Shown: piece by piece, positions 162-5,167 of the stretch | How the letters are laid out: the number at the start of each line of letters is the position of its first letter | Position numbering within the stretch: position 1 is the first letter of the stretch | DNA from: Nitrospirota bacterium | Lineage (GTDB): Bacteria; Nitrospirota; UBA9217 | Length of the DNA: 5,167 nucleotides | Assembly (NCBI GenBank): GCA_017885365.1 | Contig: JAFNGD010000324.1 | Location: 1-5,167, forward strand | Direction: 5' to 3' | Notes under the pieces: generated by a model | Told to the model about the DNA's origin: nothing | Database searches by the model: none | Seen by the model: only the letters and a program-made list of their open reading frames with translations | Position numbers and translations under genes: made by a program

Positions 162-656
162 TCAGGTATTTGTCCGTTTTCCGAGATGATACGCCCCCAC
201 CAGGCCTGCCAGCAGGAGCATGGATGCCAGCTCCACGCCGAGCGCGTAGGGGCCGAAGAGCGTAATGCCGACCTGCTTCGGAGAGATCGTCGCGCCTCTC
301 ATGGCCTCAACATTGCTGTCTACGAAGAAGTATACGAGCTCGAATGCCAGGATGCCGCAGAGGAGCGAAGGCCCTCGCCAGATGCCGGGCTTCAACCACA
401 GCGATTCCTGCTGCGCTGTCACCCTGCCCAGGTTCAGCATCATCATCACGAAGATGAACAGGACCATGATGGCGCCGGCATAGATGATGACCTCGAGCGC
501 CGCTGCAAAAGGTGCGCCGAGGACAAAAAAGATGAGCGCCACGGCCAGGAGCGACACGATGAGATACAGCAGCGCGTGCACCGCGTTCGTCCGGGTGATG
601 ACCAGGACAGTAGCCAGGACCGCGATGATGGCTGACATATAGAAAAGAAGGTTCAT
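162..656 (-). CDS. nuoJ: NADH-quinone oxidoreductase subunit J
   Basis: Membrane-arm subunit J (ND6 family) of complex I, 164 residues. Five hydrophobic segments are seen at roughly residues 1-20, 27-46, 52-75, 92-113 and 138-157. The third contains ALEVIIYAGAIMVLF, including Glu55 and Tyr59 at the same numbers as in E. coli NuoJ. This helix carries the pi-bulge that is thought to switch during coupling of quinone reduction to proton transfer. The motifs THTNPVHALLY-like (21-31), ISPKQVGITLFGPY (124-137) and VELASMLLLAGLV (141-153) are near-identical to E. coli. The protein ends at GKRTNT and lacks the ~20-residue hydrophilic tail of the E. coli protein. The ATG at 656 fits the family's N-terminus (MNLLFY versus MEFAFY), but its only candidate Shine-Dalgarno lies far upstream, inside the end of a repeat element. 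It sits between nuoI (300-bp gap) and nuoK (103-bp gap). Confidence 0.96.
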   Translation of the reverse strand: MNLLFYMSAIIAVLATVLVITRTNAVHALLYLIVSLLAVALIFFVLGAPFAAALEVIIYAGAIMVLFIFVMMMLNLGRVTAQQESLWLKPGIWRGPSLLCGILAFELVYFFVDSNVEAMRGATISPKQVGITLFGPYALGVELASMLLLAGLVGAYHLGKRTNT

Positions 657-670
657 AATTAAAGATCAAG

Positions 671-676
671 TTCCTT
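671..676 (-). promoter_or_regulatory. Candidate, unusually distant ribosome binding site of nuoJ
   Basis: Minus-strand AAGGAA overlaps the end of repeat copy A and is followed by 14 nt of AT-rich sequence before the ATG at 656. No better Shine-Dalgarno is present closer in. Spacing is longer than the usual 5-10 nt, so initiation may be weak or may depend on an unstructured AT-rich leader. Confidence 0.35.
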
Positions 677-793
677 GACACGGAAGATTCATGATAAAAA
701 GCCTGAAGAGGCATGATAAGTCGCAGTCTTTATCTTCAGAACAACAATGAATCCGCCTTTATCCGGTTTTCATCCGCCCCTTCAGTGTCAAAG
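673..793 (+). repeat. ~122-bp terminal-inverted-repeat element, copy A
   Basis: One of three copies of the same element, 121 bp, in the nuoI-nuoJ gap. The left end CTTGACACGGAAG and right end CTTCAGTGTCAAAG are imperfect inverted repeats (one base missing, one mismatch). Behind the left end, a GAAGAttCATGAT / GAAGAGGCATGAT pair repeats with a 22-bp period. The right arm carries three ATCCG iterations at about 10-11 bp spacing (751-775). Arms match copies B and C; the centre (about 717-747) does not. GCCTGAAGAGGC (701-712) could form a tiny hairpin. No ORF or transposase is present, so this is MITE-like or REP-like non-autonomous repeat DNA. I cannot assign a named family. The minus-strand strand of this copy would be transcribed in the nuo mRNA just ahead of nuoJ. 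Confidence 0.85.
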
Positions 794-806
794 ATTCCCG
801 ATATGA

Positions 807-929
807 CCTTTGACACGGAAGAAGCATGATCAACAGCCTGAAGAGGCATGACACGGCGCCTTGTTCGGTCTTAATCCAATGAATTAATCCGCCGTGATCC
901 GGTGTACATCCGCTCCTTCAGTGTCAAAG
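807..929 (+). repeat. ~122-bp terminal-inverted-repeat element, copy B
   Basis: Second copy, 123 bp, same orientation as A and directly adjacent to it. The ends CTTTGACACGGAAG (808-821) and CTTCAGTGTCAAAG (916-929) are inverted repeats with one mismatch in 14. The 22-bp-spaced GAAGA..CATGA pair (818-830 and 840-852), the GCCTGAAGAGGC block (836-847) and the ATCCG iterations (887-912) are all present. The centre (about 852-880) differs from A and C. A 13-bp linker separates it from copy A, and a related sequence follows its right end. Together with A it fills almost the whole 300-bp nuoI-nuoJ gap, in which I see no other gene, promoter or terminator. Confidence 0.85.
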
Positions 930-956
930 ATGCTCGATAGTCCTTTCGCTGCATAT

Positions 957-1472
957 TCACGGCAATAGGCTTTTTACGTCCACCGGCGGTTCTTCGTTCA
1001 AGCCTTCTCCCTTGCCCTTGCCTTCGACGGCCAGTCCCGCGACGCGGTAGAAGTCATATCCGGGATATTTGCCTGGGCCGCTGATGAGCAGGTCCTCTTT
1101 CTCATACACCAGGTTCTGCCGGACATACTCGCCCATCTCGAAGTCCGTCGTCAGCTGGATGGCATAGGTCGGGCATGCCTCCTCGCAGAATCCGCAGAAG
1201 ATGCAGCGCGAGAAATTGATGCGAAAAAAGGACGGGTAGCGCCGTCCGTGCTCGTCCTCCGTTGCCTGGAGCGAGATGCAGCCCACCGGACAGGCAACGG
1301 CGCACAGGTTGCAGGCCACGCAGCGCTCCTTCCCTCCGGGGTCCCGGGAAAGGATGATCCTGCCGCGCCAGCGCGGCGGGATATGCGGCCGCTCCTCGGG
1401 GTACTGGATTGTCACCCGTTTCCGGAATACGGTCACGAAGACCGTCCATATGGATCTGAGAAGACTGATCAT
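957..1472 (-). CDS. nuoI: NADH-quinone oxidoreductase subunit I (2x[4Fe-4S] ferredoxin-like)
   Basis: Subunit I carries clusters N6a and N6b, which relay electrons to the terminal cluster N2 and on to quinone at the junction of the peripheral and membrane arms. The 171-residue protein shows two CxxCxxCxxxCP motifs: Cys51, 54, 57, 61 and Cys90, 93, 96, 100. As in 8Fe ferredoxins, the last Cys of each motif should ligate the other cluster. Both motifs are intact. An amphipathic N-terminus (LLRSIWTVF) precedes the conserved YPEE (24-27) and RGRI (36-39). The C-terminal part has [21 protein letters not shown] and the ending DVKSLLP, all essentially as in E. coli NuoI (180 residues). The ATG at 1472 is the only normal start in frame after the upstream stop region, but its Shine-Dalgarno candidate is 16 nt away in the end of repeat copy C. 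Identity is secure. Confidence 0.97.
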
Positions 1473-1488
1473 AATTCTAATAAAATTG

Positions 1489-1494
1489 CCACCT
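1489..1494 (-). promoter_or_regulatory. Candidate, unusually distant ribosome binding site of nuoI
   Basis: Minus-strand AGGTGG overlaps the end of repeat copy C and is followed by 16 nt of AT-rich sequence before the ATG at 1472. Nothing closer resembles a Shine-Dalgarno. The arrangement parallels that upstream of nuoJ. Confidence 0.35.
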
Positions 1495-1613
1495 TTGACA
1501 CGGAAGAGGCATGATCAACTGCCTGAAGAAGCATGATAAGACTTTTCTTAGTTGTTAAACCAAGGGACCGATCCGCCTTTATCCGATTTTCATCCGCTTT
1601 TTCCGTGTCAAAG
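1492..1613 (+). repeat. ~122-bp terminal-inverted-repeat element, copy C
   Basis: Third copy, 122 bp, filling most of the 148-bp nuoH-nuoI gap. It has the best-preserved ends: CTTTGACACGGAA (1493-1505) and TTCCGTGTCAAAG (1601-1613) are a perfect 13-bp inverted repeat. The left arm has GAAGAGGCATGAT (1503-1515) and GAAGAAGCATGAT (1525-1537), 22 bp apart. The right arm has ATCCG at 1571, 1581 and 1592. The centre (about 1538-1570) is unlike A and B. No clear target-site duplication can be seen. Its right end is 7 bp from the nuoH stop codon, so in the nuo transcript it begins almost immediately after nuoH and ends at the nuoI leader. Confidence 0.87.
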
Positions 1614-1620
1614 ACCTTCT

Positions 1621-2580
1621 TTATCCCTTCATCAACATGACTGCTCCCGTCATCACCAGGTTCACCAGCGACAGCGGCAGCATCACTTTCCATCCGAAGG
1701 ACATGAGCTGGTCGTACCGGGGCCGGGGTAGGGACGCCCGGATCAATATGAAGAAACAGATGAAGACGGAGGTCTTGAGCAGGAACCAGACGATTGGCGG
1801 CAGGAACGGTCCATGCCATCCGCCGAAGAACAACACGACGGACATTGCGGAAATGAGCGTGATGCCCAGGTATTCACCGGCGAAGAACAGGCCGAACTTG
1901 AGGCCCGAGTACTCCGCGTGATACCCCGCGACCAGTTCGCTCTCGGCCTCGGGAAGGTCGAAGGGGAGGCGGCGGGTCTCGGCGATGCCGGCGATGAAGA
2001 AGACCACGAAGCCGACGAATTGGGGCACGATGAACCATTGGCCGCGCTGGGCCTCGACGATGGCGACCAGGTCGAAGGAGCCCGTGATCATGACCACGCC
2101 CATGAGCGACAGGCCCATGAACACCTCGTAGCTCAGCATCTGCGCCGCCGCCCGCAGTCCTCCCAGCAGCGAGTACTTGCTGTTCGAGGCCCACCCGGCC
2201 AGGGCGACGCTGTACACACTGAGCGACGACATGGCAAGAAAGAACAGGATGCCGATGTTCAGGTCCACGACCTCGATGCCGGGGGCGAAGGGGATGACGG
2301 CAAAGGACATGACGACGGCGACCATGATGATGGCAGGCGCCAGGACGAACACCGCCTTGTCGGCGAACGGCGGAATCCAGTCTTCCTTCGTGAGCACCTT
2401 GATCATATCGGCTGCCACCTGCAGGAGGCCGAACGGCCCGACCCGGTTCGGCCCATAGCGGTACTGCCAAAGAGCGAGAAGCCGTCGTTCAAGCCAGATC
2501 AGCAGCCCGCCGACGGTCAGGACCGAGAAGAGCACGCTGAACAGGATGATGAGATGGAGGATGGCATCATGCATGATCAT
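1621..2580 (-). CDS. nuoH: NADH-quinone oxidoreductase subunit H
   Basis: Subunit H (ND1 family) is the membrane protein that forms most of the quinone-binding chamber and the first (E-channel) proton route of complex I. The 319 residues contain about eight hydrophobic helices. Signature motifs are ERRLLAL (31-37), [11 protein letters not shown] (41-51), KEDWIP (65-70), DLNIGILFF (106-114), the [18 protein letters not shown] block (130-147) with SYEV (150-153), the acidic loop [22 protein letters not shown] (split here at residues 205-226) and [13 protein letters not shown] (281-293). These match E. coli NuoH almost residue for residue, and the loop glutamates thought to take part in coupling are present. 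Its ATG at 2580 overlaps the nuoG stop as ATGA. However, an AAAGGG site (2583-2588) is 2 nt from that ATG and 8 nt from the in-frame ATG at 2574, so the true start may be Met3 (317 residues). Confidence 0.97.
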
Positions 2581-5167
2581 GACCCTTTGACAATGCTTCC
2601 GAACACCGGACCGTTCGTGCCCCGGAGAGGGAGGACCCCGGACGGGAAGCCTGCCAGGCCCGGCCGCAGGCCGGGTACGATGGCCACGCGGCAGCGGAGC
2701 CGTGTGCCTTCGGACAGTAGATCGACCAGGTCCCCGGGAGACGCATTGAGCTGTTCCGCATCGAAAGGGCCCAGGGCGAGATAGGGTCCCGCTGCAAGCG
2801 ATACAATGCCCGGGGCATGTATGCTCAGCTCCTCGGAACCGAAGAGGTGATACAGCGGGACCAGGAGCCAGGTACCCGGCCCTGCCGTAGAGGTCGCGGG
2901 AACGCCGTCGAAATAGTTCGCCGGCCCCGAGGGCCCCGGACCCGGGAACAGCCTTCCCGCATCTGCGCTGTCAGGAGGCAGTGCCTCCGCGAAGGGTGGT
3001 CTGTTCAGCGCCTGGACCGAATTCCATCCCGGCGACCAGTACCGCGAGATGAGCGGCAAAGGCGGTCTGCCTTCGTAGCCCTCCATCGAGAATGCCAGGG
3101 GAGAATCCGGGTCCTCCGGCGGTTTTGGCTCATGCACGTTCGTATGTGCAAGCATGGCGGTGCGCCCGCTGTATCGGTGCGGCTGGCGGGGGACTTTTGA
3201 TCCCTTGATCCTGAACTCCGCAGAGGGTGCTATGTCCGCGACAGGAGCAAGGACTGGCAAGGCCGATGCCATCTGCTTCACCAGTGCGTCGAAGGACGGC
3301 GAACCTCCGATTGCCGGTCTCCCGGCAGCCTTCATTATATCATTGATCCATTTTCCGCTTGCCTGAATATCGCCTTGAGGAACGTACACCTGATAGGATC
3401 GCTGCGCCCGGCCTTCGTTGTTCACCAGCGTCCCCTGCGATTCAGCGAAGGTGCCTGCAGGCAGGACGACGTCTGCGCGTGCTGTTGTTGCGTTGACGAG
3501 ATGGTCGAGGACGATGATATGTTCTGCCTTGCCCAGGAACGCGTCGATGGTCGTCCTATCGCCCCTGCGGTAGAGATCGTTCTCAAGGATGATGACGGTA
3601 TCGGCAAGGCCGTCCTGCATGACCGTGAAGGCTTCGCCCAGGTTCCTTCCTCCCATGATGCCGGAGCCCATGCTGTTGCATTCAGGGACCGCATAGCAGA
3701 TCGATACGGAACGGTTGCTCCTGGCGAGGGTCGCTGCCACGTTGGCCGCGGACGCTACAATGGATTCGTTTAACAGACTTGTGCCGGAGACGATGAGCGG
3801 CCGCTTGGCGTCCTTGAGACTGTGAGCGATCTCCCATGCGAGGGCAGCGGCCGACGCGTTCAGGTCCGCGACCTCAGGCGCATGGGGGTCCAGTTCATGG
3901 GCTATGGCAAAGCCCAGCCGTGCGATATCGTCGGGAGCGGCCTGATAGGCCTTTGTCGAGATGTCGTCCAGTTTTGTATTGGTGACCGTGGCGATATACA
4001 GCGGACTTGTTGCGCCCTGCCCGGCGTTCCGTACGCCTGCATCCTGCCATGGGGGGATCTTGAGCTTCGCTGCTGCATCAAGCTCTTTCCGGCGCACGGA
4101 CTGCCTGAGGGAGAGGGCAAGGAGGGGGGCCGTGTTCGTCAAATCCTCACCCAGGACCAGCACCGCATCGGCGTTCCGGACATCGTGCAGGGAAGACAGT
4201 CGGGCAGGGCCTCCTCTGAAAATATCAATGATCCGGGAGACGAGCGCATGGTCCGCATCGGACATGCCGGAGTAGAAGTTCTCCGGTCGCACAAGCGTGC
4301 GCAGCGCAAAGTTGGATTCCAGCGATGCGCGGGGCGAGCCGATGCCGATAATGCCCTTGCTCCGGGAAAGAATATCGGCGACGTGAGCGAGAGCGGATTC
4401 TTTGTCAAAAGGCTGGAGATCCCCCTCACCCTGACCTCTCCCCAATAGGGAGAGGGGTAATACGGCGAGAGGTTTCCTGATCCGCTTGTCGCTGTTCACG
4501 AACTCGTAGCCGAAACGGCCCCGGTCGCACAGGAAATAGCCGTTCACCTCGTGATGGAAGCGGTTCGCGATCCGGCGCAGGGAATGGTCGCGCTCGCCGG
4601 CGATGGTGTTGCATCCCAGACCGCAGTGCACACAGATGGACGGCGCGGTCTGGAGGTCCCATTTGCGGGTGTAATGTCGTTTCAGGGTCTTGTCGGTGAA
4701 CACGCCCGTGGGGCAGATCTCGACCAGGTTGCCGCTGAACTCGCTTTCGAGCACACCGTCCTCATGCCGGCCGAAGTACACGTGGTCATGGGCACCGAAG
4801 ACGTTCAGGTCCCGTCCCCCTGCATAGTCCCGGTAGAACCGGACGCACCGGTAGCACTGAATGCACCGGTTCATCTCATGATTGATGAACGGGCCCAGAT
4901 ACTGGTTCCGGTGCGTGCGTTTCCTGAATCGCGTGCGGCGATATGTATGGCCGGTCATGACGGTCATGTCCTGGAGGTGGCACTCGCCGCCTTCGTCGCA
5001 GACCGGGCAGTCGTGCGGGTGGTTGAGCATGAGCCACTCGATCACGCCCTTCCGGAACGCCCTGGCCTCCGGGTCGTCCACGGAGATGCGCATACCCTCG
5101 GTCACCGGGGTCATGCAGGACATGATGATCTTTCCGCGCGTGTCGTGTTCGTCCTTGAACTGCTTCA
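2577..5167 (-). CDS. nuoG: NADH-quinone oxidoreductase subunit G, 5' end beyond the window
   Basis: Largest peripheral-arm subunit, carrying electrons between the NADH site and NuoI. The frame is open to the right edge; about 50 N-terminal residues with three ligands of the [2Fe-2S] cluster N1b are outside. Numbering from the Met at 5123 (internal; equals E. coli Met65): Cys3 is the fourth N1b ligand. N5 ligands are His35, Cys39, Cys42, Cys48; N4 ligands are Cys87, 90, 93, 137. N7 ligands are Cys164, 167, 171, 199, whose spacing equals that of N7-bearing NuoG. A molybdopterin-oxidoreductase-like fold without expected cofactor follows (IGIGSPRAS near 259-267, [27 protein letters not shown]-like [10 protein letters not shown]) with a C-terminal beta domain. 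Similarity to E. coli NuoG (~908 residues) is end to end. Two oddities are a ~10-residue insertion at 223-234 encoded by a palindromic repeat, and a Pro/Gly-rich stretch (FPGPGPSGP, around 727-738). Confidence 0.96.
2583..2588 (-). promoter_or_regulatory. Ribosome binding site of nuoH (within the nuoG 3' end)
   Basis: Minus-strand AAAGGG, encoding part of the last NuoG codons (VKGS). Its spacing is 2 nt to the ATG at 2580 and 8 nt to the ATG at 2574, which favours the second Met or translational coupling through the ATGA overlap. Confidence 0.4.
4421..4457 (+). repeat. Palindromic repeat inside nuoG, translated in frame
   Basis: CCTCTCCC (4435-4442) and GGGAGAGG (4448-4455) form a perfect 8-bp inverted repeat around a 5-nt loop, preceded by CCCCCTCACCCTGA. 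The layout (C-rich CCTCACCC lead plus CTCTCCCC/GGGAGAGG hairpin) resembles a short palindromic repeat commonly seen between genes in many GC-rich bacteria; that resemblance is from memory. Here it is read through on the minus strand as [12 protein letters not shown]. Aligned with E. coli NuoG, the segment between the conserved RKP/RQP and ADI positions is about 36 residues instead of 26, and the repeat accounts for the extra ~10. It lies in the linker between the N7 cluster region and the molybdopterin-like domain. Confidence 0.7.

Follow-up and report, generated by a model that had tools for sequence, protein, structure and literature searches.

Fold-back repeats in nuo operon gaps of a Nitrospirota bacterium and their candidate relation to GxxExxY nuclease genes

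Introduction

Several kinds of short repeat that lie between bacterial genes and carry inverted ends have been described. In the REPIN/RAYT (REPtron) and TIRYT systems, to judge from excerpts of the published accounts (PMC3116915; PMC3733652), the repeats are short inverted doublets, intergenic and multicopy, and the enzyme genes are themselves flanked by related inverted repeats. The multicopy nucleotide sequences of Geobacter, compared here by their description in an excerpt of the report (PMC2700814), occur both in intergenic regions and within genes, and some have inverted-repeat ends. MITEs are short and gene-less, have terminal inverted repeats and occur as dispersed copies with target-site duplications (TSDs).

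Here we analyse a window of 5,167 nucleotides, the whole stretch of DNA under study, from a Nitrospirota bacterium (contig JAFNGD010000324.1 of assembly GCA_017885365.1). Its open frames and Pfam matches show part of a minus-strand nuo operon (nuoG, nuoH, nuoI and nuoJ), and two of the gaps between these genes hold three fold-back elements, c1 to c3, which probably derive from a mobile element associated with GxxExxY nuclease genes. Searches of open-licence papers listed none that describes such elements or GxxExxY mobility.

Results

Three fold-back copies in two nuo gaps

Arms of the elements were scored with R1, a 47-position sequence-only profile built from 41 arms. The features of the window are as follows.

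162 to 656, minus strand: nuoJ, host operon gene (PF00499, E 3.6e-35)
673 to 793 (121 nt), unstranded: c1, in the nuoI/nuoJ gap; arms at 674-718 (+) and 750-793 (-), with R1 arm matches of 27.0 and 43.9 bits from a profile that includes the c1 arms themselves
808 to 929 (122 nt), unstranded: c2, in the nuoI/nuoJ gap; arms at 808-851 (+) and 886-929 (-), with R1 arm matches of 29.2 and 37.0 bits
957 to 1472, minus strand: nuoI, host operon gene (Fer4 families; tblastn matches at nuo loci of relatives)
1493 to 1613 (121 nt), unstranded: c3, in the nuoH/nuoI gap; arms at 1493-1538 (+) and 1570-1613 (-), with R1 arm matches of 29.3 and 45.2 bits
1621 to 2580, minus strand: nuoH, host operon gene (PF00146, E 7.9e-124)
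2577 to 5165, minus strand: nuoG, its 5' end outside the window (PF10588, PF22117, PF00384)

The three copies reported in a preliminary description of this DNA are real, being recovered by a repeat search, by an end-pair pattern (three matches in the window, none in 200 dinucleotide shuffles) and by alignment. Their coordinates had been right within one base, c2 and c3 starting at 808 and 1493 where 807 and 1492 had been given. The common ends hold in substance, with two corrections: c1 starts CCTTGACAC, and c3 has TTTCCGTGTCAAAG as its right end instead of CTTCAGTGTCAAAG. The doubled block of the left arm is present as GAAGANNCATGA at all six places, and as the exact GAAGAGGCATGAT at some of them only. 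The three ATCCG iterations of the right arm were found in c1, c2 and c3, the alignment confirmed that the centres diverge, and all three copies lie outside the nuo frames, as judged from the open frames and the Pfam matches of the four proteins.

Each element is built of two terminal arms of about 45 bp, inverted around an unconserved centre (about 30 bp in the window). Identity between whole copies ranges from 92/120 to 95/121 (77-79%), and c1 and c2 lie next to each other, with 14 bp between them. Every R1 arm opens with CTTTGACAC and continues with GA-centred words (CGGAT, CTGAT, CATGAT) about one helical turn apart, the GA dinucleotides being invariant or nearly so and spaced by 10-12 bp. 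Both strands of c1, c2 and c3 fold better than shuffled sequences (z -2.4 to -4.5); none of 200 shuffles did as well in five of the six strand cases, and 3/200 did for the c1 plus strand. We saw no nuclease remnant in the centres of c1-c3. Rfam returned no relevant RNA family, its one sub-threshold match (2023-2137) lying outside the elements.

Two other features of the window were observed. An imperfect palindrome inside nuoG at 4412-4460, CCCTCACCCTGACCTCTCCCC..GGGAGAGGGG, is translated in frame as a 13-residue stretch; the overlapping 121-nt block 4329-4449 is the least conserved against the related genome G001 (80/119) and looks as if another repeat had invaded the gene. The nuoJ/nuoK gap (45-161) holds a degenerate GAAGTTGGGAAGTTGAGAAGG tract.

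A dispersed family between genes

The copies had been taken for a dispersed, non-autonomous, REP/BIME-like family lying between co-transcribed genes, and this view is supported by copy counts, intergenic placement, presence or absence at orthologous sites and the TSDs of genome G010. In the relatives G001, G002 and G003 we counted at least 67, 129 and 58 R1 arms, respectively (E<=0.01; 150 candidates scored per genome). R1 copies lie on many contigs of several genomes, and the absence of further copies, which the preliminary description had named as the result that would speak against a family, was not observed. An exact scan of genome contigs for the end pair returned five stretches, each from a MAG with Nitrospirae or Nitrospiria in its title; one of the stretches (L003, in W9_Combined_metabat2_096, our G001) is the orthologous nuoH/nuoI gap. 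Within the phylum, 11 of 198 genomes carry R1 arms under stricter filters (E<=1e-5; 31 candidates scored per genome).

Placement was examined in an 864,060-bp sample of G002, consisting of the first 20 kb of contigs C5-C64 picked irrespective of elements. There, 29 arms scored at least 15 bits, against none in one first-order Markov shuffle, and they form nine head-to-head pairs and 11 single arms. According to the calls of a simple purpose-made gene caller, by which the sample is 82% coding, all nine pairs are intergenic, eight in tandem gaps and one in a divergent gap; eight of the single arms are in tandem gaps and three at contig edges. Since tandem gaps make up 74% of gap bases, the elements show no enrichment for sites between co-directional genes as such. 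The centre is unconserved among the aligned copies of G001-G003 and the window. One R1-type element was also noticed at 6281-6413 of L006, a 43-kb IMG/VR contig that is either a provirus or a mis-sorted host contig.

Orthologous nuo sites differ in what they hold. In G001, the closest relative found, c2 and c3 have orthologs. Its nuoI/nuoJ gap has a single element, the ortholog of c2 (L004, 113-235), with the nuoJ start 16 bp beyond it, and c1 is absent. In G009 and G012 only 15-17 bp lie between the matched ends of nuoH and nuoI, which leaves no space for an element. The nuo gaps of relatives contain further fold-back elements. In G003 the nuoH/nuoI gap carries another palindromic repeat (CCCCTCCTTGCCAAGGAGGGG and relatives; L071, 6944-7144), so that this gap appears as a recurrent insertion place.

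GxxExxY genes with inverted iteron flanks

Some nuo gaps of relatives are occupied by an open frame of 125-134 aa, namely the nuoI/nuoJ gap in G003 and G011 and the nuoH/nuoI gap in G002. The G003 and G002 frames are GxxExxY proteins (TIGR04256, E 6.7e-41 and 5.7e-44; PF13366, E 8.7e-39 and 5.1e-43), and the G011 frame was identified by tblastn with these two. In G001, G002, G013 and G014 the gap after nuoJ is likewise occupied by GxxExxY, there with ends of the CCACAGAG type. Matches were found in all ten relatives searched (3-9 stretches each, some of them fragments) and, above the cut-off, in 30 of the 198 genomes of the phylum.

In the protein alignment (35 of 37 attempted rows, L138, which had stops, being omitted along with L139), G33, G35, E38, Y41, D77, E87, K89, Q101 and N118 are invariant, so that the active-site D, E and K are kept in 35/35. 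We take these D..ExK residues to be a PD-(D/E)XK-like site, adjoining the name-giving GxxExxY. A fold search with the predicted model (pLDDT 89) returned Cas4 (SSO0001), LHK-Exo, lambda exonuclease and MGME1 (E 5.8e-5 to 0.02, TM by query 0.44-0.57, rmsd mostly 11-14 A), matches that are consistent with a nuclease fold without pointing to a precise function. Of three proteins compared with PADLOC, one had a single weak match (E 0.0025).

The flanks of these genes are inverted repeats far more often than those of ordinary genes. Among 53 distinct genes with at least 120 nt on each side, out of 61 matches, 38 had flank repeats scoring >=18, against 4/314 ordinary genes gapped on both sides and 7/657 ordinary genes overall, the controls being drawn from G002 alone. 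The mean score was 20.8 for a gene's own flanks, 11.7 for swapped flanks and 12.0 when its own flanks were compared directly instead of inverted. Each end is an array of a short word (CGAAG, CAAAG, CGGAT, CAGAG, CGAAT, CTGAG and others), and an element usually has one and the same word at its two ends. GxxExxY genes between inverted iteron arrays are found in the relatives and not in the window. The similarity of ends follows protein distance (Spearman -0.31, Mantel p=0.0005, 488 non-orthologous pairs) in 32 of 39 elements, the seven with an inverted-repeat score <15, L129 of G002 among them, being left out. The genes also sit in the sense of their surroundings: for 56 of them both neighbours were on the same strand in 49 cases, one was opposed in two and one side was uncalled in five. 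This gives 49/51 with both neighbours co-directional, against 210/314 ordinary G002 genes gapped on both sides (p=3e-6) and 472/657 of all ordinary G002 genes, the neighbour callers differing slightly between GxxExxY and ordinary genes.

Gene-less elements with such words are frequent as well. In the G002 sample, 31/481 gaps score >=18, against 0/481 shuffles, and 23 of these 31 bear the words as judged by eye. Large gene-less fold-back families with other words were observed in the same sample (L140-L199), and the CTCGCAAAG pattern has 35 matches in G002 and 107 in G003, the CACGAAT pattern 34 and 17. Words and GxxExxY end types agree only loosely by genome: none of the seven genes seen in G003 is of the CACGAAT type, for all its 17 matches, and G006 has such a gene and one match.

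Beyond these relatives, 14 of 29 further GxxExxY genes from other lineages, plasmids and viral contigs have flank inverted repeats scoring >=15. The repeats are clear on the viral contigs L200 and L201 and, owing to G+C content, doubtful in Gemmatirosa (L206) and Sphingomonas (L207); the genes on plasmids of Fusobacteria, Bernardetia and Persicobacter (L203-L205) show none. Three GxxExxY loci were confirmed on viral contigs in a pattern-limited scan. On the Gemmatirosa plasmid, a CGCGGAT-word hairpin lies immediately downstream of the gene.

R1 arms at GxxExxY genes

The gap just upstream of nuoG carries GxxExxY in G003, G005 and G011. Presumably it is the same nuoF/nuoG gap, its genes being named from the flanking letters, that holds GxxExxY in G002 (L129), G010 (L220) and G012 (L117, with one stop), and what we take to be a GxxExxY remnant lies upstream of nuoG in G009 (L078). 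The upstream-of-nuoG proteins of G002, G003, G005, G010 and G011 fall into a single clade (support 0.89), and the ends of these elements are mostly TTTGACAC-like. In L129, R1 arms of 20.0 and 18.0 bits flank the gene on both sides in the correct orientation; the two ends pair poorly with each other (score 11). L117 has one R1 arm of 20.0 bits and a weak 8.5 on the other side. The R1 profile had been built without any arm of these upstream-of-nuoG elements. At the level of genomes, GxxExxY is matched in all 11 that bear R1 arms. These 11 are close kin, so that the co-occurrence is confounded by descent, and of the 31 genomes matched by GxxExxY, 20 lack any R1 arm at E<=1e-5. Among the relatives searched, none of the GxxExxY elements found had arms identical to those of the window.

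Target-site duplications and candidate mobilising enzymes

R1-type copies of G010 resemble one another from end to end, also in the centre (20 copies of 130-145 nt; identity on average 83% between pairs and 95% to the nearest neighbour), and reach outward to CCTARAAAA..TTTTTAGG, with outer ends CCTAGAAAAA..TTTTTAGG. An exact 5-bp TSD was present in 11/22 cases, against 19/462 swapped pairs, at a boundary chosen as the best among 64 offsets, no other offset giving five or more exact; a looser scan gave 16/22, against 3.9 expected. Such closely similar copies with 5-bp TSDs indicate that R1-type elements have moved as DNA. For 47 R1 copies outside G010, the window included, there was no TSD signal (5 against 2.9 expected), which fits with age and decay of the ends; the sequence outside their arms is A-rich toward the arm. 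No TSD was detectable at GxxExxY elements (4/38 against 2.8 expected). Thus, with TSDs in G010 and none detected at GxxExxY elements or other R1 copies, the G010 copies and the GxxExxY elements may move differently.

These data leave room for another reading, in which R1 elements are ordinary MITEs moved by some transposase with 5-bp duplications and their likeness to GxxExxY elements reflects a common architecture or a capture. The TSDs and outer ends of G010 agree with it, as does the lack of TSDs at GxxExxY elements. In addition, three loci of G013 (L250, L251 and L268) carry an IS-like sequence (start MQLYASFDL; about 15 codons seen) that starts immediately behind the CATTTGA or CACTTGA in outer ends of the R1 type and that we take to be perhaps IS110-like. 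However, its copies are alike only inward of TTGA and the outer end of L268 differs, so that it is better read as inserted into R1-type ends; it may be a site-specific IS targeting the repeat, or the repeat's own partner. To find a transposase that could partner the G010 subfamily, we examined two outer-end patterns and 20 further loci, several ends of which hit contig edges. In 18 of these loci no second end was found within the fetched stretch (<=4 mismatches), and in two it lay at 142 and 177 bp; for 15 of the loci the inward sequence was examined for open frames alone. The GxxExxY gene with R1 arms on both sides likewise argues against ordinary MITEs, and we consider this reading unlikely.

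Pairing of the arms and constraint on the copies

It had also been proposed that pairing of the arms is what is selected, and that the arms pair in the nuo mRNA as processing or stability signals setting subunit ratios. The hairpins are indeed stable, the transcribed strand has the lower folding energy in all three window copies, and copies sit within operons. Conservation of c3 points the same way: it is identical to its ortholog (L003, 577-697) at 115/121 sites, and the nearest third codon positions agree at 52/60 and 48/60, so that c3 differs at 6/121 sites against 20/120 (fourfold sites of the window and G001 agree at 132/168 in nuoH, 55/76 in nuoI and 277/373 in nuoG). By this sequence comparison, c3 evolving more slowly than neighbouring third positions favours some constraint on it, which could reflect a host function. 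In contrast, c2 matches its G001 ortholog at 101/122 aligned bases, about the rate of nearby third positions, and is not clearly constrained.

Tests of the pairing itself showed no such trace. Among 48 distinct R1 elements, own arms were less alike than swapped arms (15.6 against 18.1). In 44 fold-backs of G002 tandem gaps, G.U pairs were not in excess on the sense strand (65 against 62 A.C), and the sense strand was the more stable in 26/44, which is not significant (p=0.115). RNAalifold predicted nine pairs from 21 copies, none with a compensatory change. Selection on arm pairing is thus not borne out, and a role as an RNA element appears improbable.

Weaker alternatives

A REPIN mobilised by a RAYT (Y1 transposase) would likewise be a hairpin-forming inverted-arm doublet, intergenic and in many copies, as an excerpt of the original account has it (PMC3116915). 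But R1 arms begin CTTTGACAC and have no GTAG/CGTC tag, and the search for RAYT that the preliminary description had suggested gave Y1 matches in 4/4 genomes, whose 14 Y1 loci were free of R1 arms scoring 12 bits or more; we rejected RAYT as the R1 partner and regard this origin as very improbable. One Y1 transposase gene of G002 (L278, 1428-2448) is flanked by inverted repeats of its own, ACAGCTAGGGGACGTTGTTGCTA, which are unlike R1 and make it TIRYT-like. Finally, a local duplication restricted to the nuo operon, suggested by the adjacency of c1 and c2, is refuted by the dispersed copies on many contigs of several genomes, and the centres of c1, c2 and c3 differ.

Discussion

R1 is a dispersed family whose sampled pairs are all intergenic; orthologous sites differ in having a copy or not, and in G010 the family has been amplified with 5-bp TSDs. 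Elements of like build with other words flank GxxExxY PD-(D/E)XK genes within the same set of genomes, also at the nuo gaps where c1-c3 lie. We propose that c1-c3 are probably old, gene-less copies of a GxxExxY/iteron DNA mobile element whose arms are iterons for a trans-acting nuclease. The arms would be helically phased recognition sites in DNA to which a protein binds, and the mobilising enzyme would be a nuclease of the GxxExxY type acting in trans. Operon gaps may be permissive in that insertion there spares the frames and leaves transcription intact, and RNA folding would then be a by-product and not a selected trait. A second enzyme for R1, such as a transposase, is possible.

A broader proposal is put forward more tentatively. 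GxxExxY nucleases (TIGR04256) might be the sole enzymes of an undescribed mobile class that crosses phyla, inserts in the sense orientation between operon genes, has inverted iteron ends that co-evolve with the enzyme, and leaves many gene-less fold-backs, c1-c3 among them. The unstudied annotation "GxxExxY protein" would thereby be tied to a repeat architecture found filling the gaps within operons of some environmental genomes. If true, this would be a nuclease-based counterpart of the RAYT/REPIN system, would account for the strong differences of intercistronic gaps between relatives, and would offer a directly testable pair of enzyme and DNA ends.

Compared with known systems, R1 shares with REPIN/RAYT and TIRYT the short, inverted, intergenic and multicopy doublet, and the GxxExxY genes resemble their enzyme genes in being flanked by related inverted repeats. 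Unlike REPIN/RAYT, R1 elements are about 120 bp long and built of iterated words of 10-12 bp, without a GTAG/CGTC tag, and the gene between the inverted repeats codes for a PD-(D/E)XK nuclease instead of a Y1 transposase. With the Geobacter sequences R1 has in common that it is multicopy and intergenic. R1 fits the structural definition of MITEs, being short, gene-less and dispersed with terminal inverted repeats, the 5-bp TSD being confined to the G010 subfamily; it differs from MITEs of classical IS by its unconserved centre, its iteron-built ends and a transposase partner that is a candidate only. The gene-bearing GxxExxY elements (TIGR04256 / PF13366 PDDEXK_3), from which c1-c3 differ in having no gene, share the nuo gaps with them and can carry R1-type ends.
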